Below, in pieces: positions 1 to 34,820 of a stretch of DNA of 41,061 nucleotides. Source of the DNA: Elusimicrobia bacterium RIFOXYA2_FULL_39_19 (GTDB lineage Bacteria > Elusimicrobiota > Endomicrobiia > CG1-02-37-114 > XYA2-FULL-39-19); assembly GCA_001800285.1 (NCBI GenBank), contig MGVC01000047.1:1-41061 (forward strand), read 5' to 3'. Positions within the stretch are counted from its first letter, which is position 1, and the number at the start of each line of letters is the position of its first letter. The notes below the pieces were generated by a model, which was given only the letters and a program-made list of their open reading frames with translations, was not told where the DNA came from and made no database searches. Both the position numbers and the translations under genes were made by a program.

Positions 1-1167
1 ATTGGCGGTTCACCGTTTACTACTTACAACTTACCGCTTACCATTAGTACAGAAGGAATCCACACAATAGAATACTGCTCAACAGACAATATTGGGGATG
101 TTGAAATCTTACAATCTCTAACAGTTTACGTAACAAATATAAGTGAATATGCGGCGTTTGCATTTGAAGAAATTAATTTTAGCGGCCAGGGTAAAATTTA
201 TGGTGATGTAAAAAGCAACGGGTCAATAAAACTTGATGGCCAGGCATTAATAGCTGGCAACGTTAGTGCACAAACAGTAACTGTTACAGGTCAAAGCCAA
301 ATAACAGGAACAATCACCCAAAATGCACCTGCAATAAACCCATATTTGATAGATTTATCTACAATTCAGGGTTATGTTTCACAAAACAACGATAATGCAA
401 ACATACCTTTAACTTCACAAGGCAACCAGGCAATAATAAACGGAGTTTTAAAATTATCAGGCAAGGATTCTATAACAATTACTACAGGTACATATTATTT
501 ATGCGGGATAGAACTATCAGGACAGTCAAAACTGTATTTCAAAGGTAAGATAGAGATATTTTGTACAGGGAAGATTTTTATATCCGGCCAGAGCGAGGTG
601 TACAAAGAAGATTTTAATTCGTATAATTTGATAATCTATTCTAATAGTGTAGAACCTATACAGGTAAGCGGCCAAGGGGAAATGCTGGGAATAATATATG
701 CGCCTTATAGTGATATATCAGTTGACGGCCAGGGAATAACAATAAGCAATGTGTTTGGTAAAACAATAAGTATAAATGGCCAGGCAAAAATAAAAGGAAC
801 CAGTTATAATGGTGAATTAGCAGTTTCTTCGGTAAAACCAAAAAAGGTAAACAAGGTTCAGGCTGATTCAACATTTAAATTAAAACAGGTTTATGTGTAT
901 CCAAATCCTGTTGAATATAGTAATCATCCTATTATCCACGTAGAATTAGGAATAGCGGATATAGTGGAGATAAGAATATATAATATGGCTGGTGAGTTAG
1001 TTAATAGTACACAATTAACTAACTATACGACAAAGAACAATGAATACTGTTACGAATATTCCTGGAATACAGCAGGAATGGCAAATGGTGTTTATGTGTG
1101 TCTTGTGAGAGCGCAGAAAGGTCATGAAACAATTAAGGTACTGAAAAAAGTGGCTGTTGTTAGATAA
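1..1167 (+). CDS. Secreted surface protein, 5'-truncated: Ig-like/OmpL47-like segment, SGQ-ladder beta-helix, PNP C-terminal domain
   Basis: The frame is open from base 1 to the TAA at 1165-1167 (388 codons), so the gene begins outside the window; the TTG at 346 is not its start. Visible codons 1-50 resemble an extracellular Ig-like/OmpL47-type repeat (EGIHTIEY). Codons about 55-270 hold a ladder of Gly-Gln turns (SGQ, DGQ, TGQ, NGQ) with glycines at codons 62, 80, 97, 154, 174, 196, 224, 243 and 260, mostly 17-22 residues apart. This suggests a parallel beta-helix like bactofilins or the DUF7305 domain. Codons about 295-388 form a FlgD-Ig/Por-secretion-like tail with YPNP at 300-303, an IYNMAGE strand, NGVYVC and a basic end. 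The family role is cell-surface display or secretion; the actual function is unknown. The DNA is AT-richer than the housekeeping genes that follow. Confidence 0.8.
   Translation: MGGSPFTTYNLPLTISTEGIHTIEYCSTDNIGDVEILQSLTVYVTNISEYAAFAFEEINFSGQGKIYGDVKSNGSIKLDGQALIAGNVSAQTVTVTGQSQITGTITQNAPAINPYLIDLSTIQGYVSQNNDNANIPLTSQGNQAIINGVLKLSGKDSITITTGTYYLCGIELSGQSKLYFKGKIEIFCTGKIFISGQSEVYKEDFNSYNLIIYSNSVEPIQVSGQGEMLGIIYAPYSDISVDGQGITISNVFGKTISINGQAKIKGTSYNGELAVSSVKPKKVNKVQADSTFKLKQVYVYPNPVEYSNHPIIHVELGIADIVEIRIYNMAGELVNSTQLTNYTTKNNEYCYEYSWNTAGMANGVYVCLVRAQKGHETIKVLKKVAVVR

Positions 1168-32872: not shown

Positions 32873-34820
<1,948 letters not shown>

Follow-up and report, generated by a model that had tools for sequence, protein, structure and literature searches.

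Introduction

In Bacteroidota, T9SS cargo with type A tails is collected from SprA by PorV, which hands it to the PorU sortase (PMC12618676, in excerpt), and most descriptions of the type A export signal so far come from Bacteroidota and related groups. Type B cargo of Bacteroidota is held by, or depends on, a PorP/SprF barrel that is often encoded next door (PMC12618676 and PMC9143113, as excerpted), and for Sphingobacteriia that lack PorU it has been proposed, in the excerpted part of PMC7323717, that cargo is left on PorV. Excerpts of three papers describe the T9SS as limited to Bacteroidota and FCB relatives (PMC12618676, PMC11285876, PMC11205867); one of them states that T9SS genes are absent outside the FCB group, and Elusimicrobiota do not appear in the FCB list that its excerpt gives (PMC11285876). 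Among open-access texts, available in part, no account of a T9SS in Elusimicrobiota was found.

A second body of work concerns solenoid proteins. The solenoid of ComZ has its closest relative in the ice-binding protein FfIBP, which carries a helix that lies against face A, and ComZ itself binds DNA and lacks conservation of the ice face (PMC6561018, in excerpt). For DUF7305 no paper was found in the open-access literature, nor was one found there that treats OmpL47 together with bactofilin.

Here we describe a frame at one end of a 41,061-nt window (the whole stretch of DNA that was analysed), which is the entire contig C47 of the source genome, G000 (3.09 Mb in 86 contigs). The frame comes from an Elusimicrobiota bacterium and is the 3' end of a gene whose product is probably a long protein of the cell surface. 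We think it probable that this protein, composed of repeats, a solenoid and a type A tail, uses Sec and a SprA-like export step and is held by PorV as a surface stalk.

Domain layout of the truncated gene

A single open frame of 388 amino acids occupies positions 1-1167 (+) and runs from the first base of the contig; because the window is the whole of that contig, the gene lacks its 5' part. The frame opens within an OmpL47-type (Ig-like) repeat, the C-terminal part of which covers residues 1-44 (1-132, +; NF047446, E 8.2e-9), the remaining gene lying beyond the contig start, and this truncated repeat scores 35.8 bits against a cut-off of 40. It is followed by a Gly-turn beta-ladder (148-804, +; residues 50-268), which passes the cut-off of the DUF7305 profile PF23981 (34.2 bits against 27), as the earlier note on this DNA had suspected, and is predicted to form a beta-solenoid of the ice-binding-protein (DUF3494)/ComZ fold. 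A loop that interrupts the ladder contains a helix at residues 119-128 (355-384, +; AlphaFold secondary structure), comparable to the side helix of ice-binding proteins. A flexible linker (805-867, +; residues 269-289, with pLDDT below 50 for residues 270-289) connects the ladder to a T9SS type A sorting domain (CTD) that starts with YPNP and comprises residues 290-388 and the stop codon (868-1167, +). The secretion or sorting domain of PNP type that had been suggested at this C-terminus is thus a curated T9SS type A tail, with scores of 34.7 bits for TIGR04183 (cut-off 23) and 27.7 for PF18962 (cut-off 27).

On another contig of the same genome, C61, a 3,514-codon frame (G000:C61:2-10543, -) has a signal-like start, Ig-like repeats and, where it runs off the end of its contig, an OmpL47-type repeat. 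It is plausible that this frame is the missing 5' part of the gene at 1-1167; in a comparison of C61 with the start of the window, no DNA overlap longer than 11 bases was found. Elsewhere in the window, a TCP-1/cpn60 chaperonin family protein is encoded at 33186-34820 (274 bits), and the remainder, as far as scanned, is housekeeping (RsfS, an ion channel, CinA, a YfhO-like protein and others).

Repeats and conservation of the ladder

Gly-Gln occurs in the ladder at residues 62, 80, 97, 174, 196, 224, 243 and 260, that is eight times against 1.9 expected from residue shuffles, and at least eight were obtained in 2 of 20,000 shuffles. Together with the Gly-Lys of 'KLSGKDS' this gives the nine Gly-centred turns, eight of them Gly-Gln, that had been counted before. 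Their spacing (18, 17, 77, 22, 28, 19 and 17 residues) is rung-like, as noted earlier for a period of mostly 17-22 residues, but is broken by the helix and loop at about residues 110-150. Among 26 aligned ladders the turn glycine is conserved in 21-26 sequences at each of eight turns, whereas the glutamine after it is present in 3-7 of the 26 at the seven turns that can be counted, the eighth being a gap column; the alternatives are Asn, Thr, Gly, Ser and Lys. Since the glycine is kept across these ladders and the glutamine is not, the 'SGQ ladder' is a local version of a Gly-turn ladder, and the idea of a glutamine at each corner applies to the closest relatives of the 1-1167 protein and not to the family.

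Of 294 phylum genomes searched by profile, 40 contain DUF7305, and loci were taken from 29 of these other than the source genome (L039-L067). Ladder and tail lie within one frame in 26 of the 29 loci, the exceptions being L043, which has no tail, L059, which is pilin-like, and L065, which has a different tail (the labels of L059 and L065 come from reading the sequences). Ten further Elusimicrobia loci (L068-L077) were chosen for ladders like that of the window; seven of them have the tail and two (L075 and L076) do not, and L072 is cut by a contig end. The ladders of G024, G015, G018 and G108, four genomes classed in the phylum of the source genome, are letter-identical to those of L077, L070, L074 and L075, respectively, which places the window in Elusimicrobiota. 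In L043, L075 and L076 the protein ends without a match to the T9SS tail profile, and the same variant is seen at two places of one genome set. The protein of L059 (1432-2595, -) carries DUF7305 on a pilin-like (PilX-type) sequence, which represents another setting of the domain in the phylum.

The earlier suggestion that Ig-like repeats precede the ladder is borne out by the last 44 residues of one such repeat here and by fuller repeats in relatives. Of 38 sequences, 37 have a repeat bordering the ladder (the exception, L060, is cut near the ladder), a count that is partly circular because the repeat profile was built from those regions; NCBIfam agrees for L019, L069 and L073, where NF047446 scores 65.2, 144.8 and 199.6 bits (cut-off 40). 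The source genome encodes two paralogues, one on C74 and one on C10, that share 40% identity with the 1-1167 protein over ladder and tail. The C74 paralogue is complete, with about 1,112 residues from its likely start, and consists of a signal-like N-terminus (identified by eye), repeat, ladder and tail. It also has a weak match to a C39-type peptidase (L019:1936-5316, -; PF13529, 25.6 bits, cut-off 24).

Predicted fold

The AlphaFold model was built with 11 sequences (mean pLDDT 79.7, pTM 0.60); pLDDT is mostly 80-94 in the blocks of the ladder and low in residues 1-45. The ladder is predicted as a parallel beta-helix, as had been anticipated. In VIA-align, which served as a second look at Foldseek's list and comprised 50 entries, the best match of the modelled ladder (residues 44-268) is FfIBP (8x1o; Z 21.1, 193 of 216 residues, 2.5 Å), all of rows 1-25 are ice-binding proteins, and row 26 is ComZ (6qvi; Z 15.3, 212 residues, 3.6 Å). 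Foldseek itself returned LeIBP (3uyv, E 9.9e-6), ComZ (6qvi, 8.6e-4) and, weakly, tapirin (4wa0, 5.7e-3). The predicted ladder has the solenoid with a side helix that is known from DUF3494 ice-binding proteins, and helix 119-128 of the model occupies the interruption that corresponds to the FfIBP side helix. The model points to an ice-binding (DUF3494)/ComZ solenoid, although a fold that is shared does not show function. A solved-structure search with the window-centred profile A4 gave no matches. The modelled tail fits, in VIA-align, the tails of PorZ (5m11; Z 10.8, 29% identity) and PorU (6za2; Z 10.4, 25% identity), and in a sequence search against solved structures the PorU tail is the sole significant match (E 8.3e-4).

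These matches allow an explanation in which the solenoid, like ComZ or the tapirin adhesins, serves to receive or adhere to a polymer (polysaccharide or DNA), the tail doing no more than deliver the solenoid to the cell surface. ComZ as the second-best fold family, the weak Foldseek match to tapirin and the matches of nine of the 26 ladders to PF20597 ('ice-binding-like adhesive domain') at E up to 1, the best at 2.3e-7, are in its favour, but no conserved binding site was identified in the ladder, and the family-wide position beside the tail puts the solenoid close to the membrane. We rate such a receptor as a serious possibility with clearly less than even chances; it is compatible with the surface protein anchored by PorV that we favour.

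Candidate export machinery in the genome and the phylum

The source genome contains 67 matches to the type A tail model TIGR04183 and 48 to the PorV/PorQ family model NF033709, 32 of the latter above cut-off and some of them fragments; contigs with PorV-family matches include C29, C16, C20, C75 and C78. One of these proteins matches the solved PorV of F. johnsoniae (6h3i) in a phmmer search (E 3e-9), and two that were scanned with the PorV equivalog model NF033710 scored 84 and 53.9 bits and did not reach its cut-off of 250. The family is found in 59 of 60 sampled genomes of the phylum, and above cut-off in 39 of them. A SprA-like protein of 1,761 amino acids, encoded on C81, gives a two-piece match to TIGR04189 (86.9 bits against a cut-off of 200), and a single-sequence search with it against solved structures gave no match to SprA; across the phylum, 254 of 294 genomes have a SprA-like match, and in none does it reach the family cut-off. 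The frame itself has 1,762 codons (G000:C81:59298-64583; L032:7299-12584), and is flanked upstream by genes resembling LptF/LptG and downstream by one resembling ComF (named by eye).

C25 (PorU-type) peptidases were found in none of the contigs of the source genome and in 1 of the 294 phylum genomes, which served as the positive control, and every match of the PorU model NF033707 in the source genome lies within the tail region of the model (939-1094 of 1095). No match to GldL of the PorL/GldL motor was found in the source genome at E up to 1, in a search where no control genome exceeded the cut-off either. The rarity of C25 peptidases fits tails that remain uncleaved. The earlier note had tied its reading to the presence of an outer membrane export route for such tails, and of this route the tails, the PorV-family genes and weak SprA-like matches were found, but not the sortase or the motor.

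Tail-PorV gene pairs

Tail and PorV genes of the source genome are frequently neighbours. Of the 48 PorV matches, 33 are immediately preceded, on their own strand and at no more than 1.5 kb, by a tail gene (27 of them at no more than 600 bases), the order PorV-then-tail occurs once in 48, and neighbours on opposite strands do not occur (0 of 48). This pairing used 74 tail matches, namely the 67 of TIGR04183 and seven added to them; with the 67 alone, 29 of 48 PorV matches are paired. Seen from the tails, 31 of 74 are paired with PorV and 43 are unpaired, the 1-1167 protein being among the latter. In the phylum, a PorV-like frame adjoins the ladder-tail gene in 24 of 29 loci, a count from which L072 was left out. 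No PorV neighbour was found at the 1-1167 gene or at any of the ten window-like loci L068-L077 (L072 included here, although it and L068 have little room to show one), and the subfamily of the 1-1167 protein is therefore an orphan one.

Tail and PorV distances are correlated over 29 pairs of the source genome (Pearson 0.67, Spearman 0.34), and none of 5000 permutations reached the Pearson value; after removal of tail pairs with at least 50% identity, r was 0.45, which was again reached by 0 of 5000. Nearest neighbours in the two distance tables agree for 11 of the 29 pairs. The set represents 29 of the 33 paired PorV, leaving out those at C16 27423 and C38 35749 (second PorV at one tail) and the partial ones of L106 and L107. 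The same correlation would also arise if neighbouring genes had been duplicated together.

The pairing bears on the explanation of the protein as canonical T9SS cargo, according to which shuttling is the work of one or a few PorV proteins, the tail is cleaved by a sortase that escaped recognition and that links the protein to a glycolipid, and the abundance of PorV genes reflects lineage-specific duplication without any cognate roles. The curated type A model is indeed satisfied by the tail, the PorV family is nearly universal in the sampled genomes, and a search for C25 would miss a sortase of another family. Against this stand the one-sided order of tail and PorV genes, their co-variation, the single genome with a C25 peptidase and the confinement of the NF033707 matches to the tail region, and we consider the canonical route unlikely.

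Proposed export and anchoring

From the domain order, conservation, predicted folds, gene pairing and co-variation described above, we infer the following route for a surface protein anchored by PorV. The protein would leave the cytoplasm by Sec, and a SprA-like translocon would recognise the tail and pass the protein across the outer membrane. A signal-peptide-like start is seen only in a paralogue, the truncated frame itself showing none. The tail, left uncleaved, would then remain bound to a PorV-family barrel, and it is this binding that is proposed to keep the protein on the surface. In most relatives the barrel would be the product of the next gene, and the 1-1167 protein would use a PorV encoded elsewhere. 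The Ig repeats may reach outward as a stalk, with the solenoid, near the membrane, serving as a rigid base or binding surface, and the ladder may thus be a domain of an adhesin-like stalk. The type A tails, the neighbouring PorV genes and the near absence of C25 peptidases fit PorV itself as the anchor. Such a T9SS-like system would be poor in sortase, and its type A cargo would be held by cognate PorV barrels in the way that PorP/SprF barrels retain type B cargo. Several results weigh against this reading: all SprA-like matches stay below the family cut-off, GldL was not found in the search described above, the window-like loci have no PorV neighbour, 43 of 74 tail matches are unpaired, and nearest neighbours agree for only 11 of 29 pairs.

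More tentatively, and at a little short of even chances, Elusimicrobiota may possess a stripped-down and perhaps ancestral T9SS-like system without PorU, in which each type A protein has its own co-evolving PorV as a dedicated anchor, not a common shuttle, and orphans share barrels. The single parts are already known, since NCBI models name PorV/PorQ-family proteins and type A tails, but the combination of tails, PorV and SprA-like proteins with tail-PorV pairing seems to be new. Type A tails, PorV and SprA-like proteins throughout a phylum, without the sortase, would bear on the origin of the T9SS and on its essential parts, and the tail-PorV gene pairs would provide a large natural set for testing how specific cargo and barrel are for each other. 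Through the ladder, DUF7305, which has so far had no known function, would be connected with surface display and with the solenoid fold of ice-binding proteins and ComZ.

Bactofilin and ice-binding readings of the ladder

The earlier note had called the ladder bactofilin-like, and it could accordingly be supposed that ladders self-assemble end to end into extracellular filaments. The bactofilin profile PF04519 does match the whole protein marginally (28.8 bits against a cut-off of 27.9, spanning 46 residues) but falls to 23.7 bits, below the cut-off, when the ladder alone is scanned. At E up to 1, PF04519 touches 22 of the 26 ladders, all 26 of which match DUF7305, and the ladder profile A2 has weak matches only among solved structures, including bactofilin A (2n3d, E 0.019; 6ria, E 0.29). 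The whole ladder, including the side helix, fits the ice-binding/ComZ solenoid far better, and the helix and loop, the flanking repeat and the tail would probably block simple end-to-end stacking; such a polymer is therefore very improbable. Bactofilins fall outside the 50 VIA-align entries, an absence that proves nothing about bactofilin kinship. As the best fold of the ladder, bactofilin was rejected in favour of the ice-binding and ComZ matches and is kept as a weak relative.

That the solenoid binds ice, making the protein an ice adhesin, is hardly credible and was rejected as the function of the ladder, in spite of the fold and of the long ice adhesin with Ig repeats that Marinomonas possesses (PMC5014055, in excerpt). 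The sequence gives no support: with E up to 1 allowed, the DUF3494 profile PF11999 finds four of the 26 ladders (best E 0.019), and that of the 1-1167 protein is not among them. The named relatives belong to MAGs, from groundwater among other sources, and ComZ, of the same fold, binds DNA and is without ice-face conservation (PMC6561018, in excerpt).

Comparison with known systems

The proposed surface protein anchored by PorV shares features with several described systems. With the competence pilin ComZ of Thermus it has the predicted solenoid fold in common, and with PilX-like pilins the DUF7305 domain, which in one phylum locus (L059) is found on a pilin-like protein; in those cases the domain belongs to pilin assembly, whereas here it is joined to a T9SS tail. 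Bactofilins resemble the ladder in having Gly-turn beta rungs of similar length and in the marginal Pfam match. They are usually cytoplasmic polymers, have neither the repeats nor the tail, and are not known to have a side helix. The DUF3494 ice-binding proteins FfIBP and LeIBP have the solenoid with a side helix that is predicted here, but in the VIA-align rows the ladder is just 12-16% identical to them, and it forms a single module within a long protein made of repeats.

On the side of export, the closest counterpart is the type A route of Bacteroidota with its PorV shuttle and SprA translocon, which is matched here by the family and fold of the tail, by PorV-family barrels and by SprA-like matches. 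It differs in that the SprA match is weak, that the C25 sortase was not found and that the phylum is another one, and in that tens of PorV paralogues are present here, many of them paired with tail genes. In this gene arrangement the system resembles type B cargo and its cognate PorP/SprF in Flavobacterium and Porphyromonas, where the barrel gene likewise comes directly after the surface-protein gene and orphan cargo without its own barrel also occurs; what distinguishes the Elusimicrobiota loci from type B systems, as these are described in the excerpts of PMC12618676 and PMC9143113, is that the tails are of type A and the barrels belong to the PorV family.
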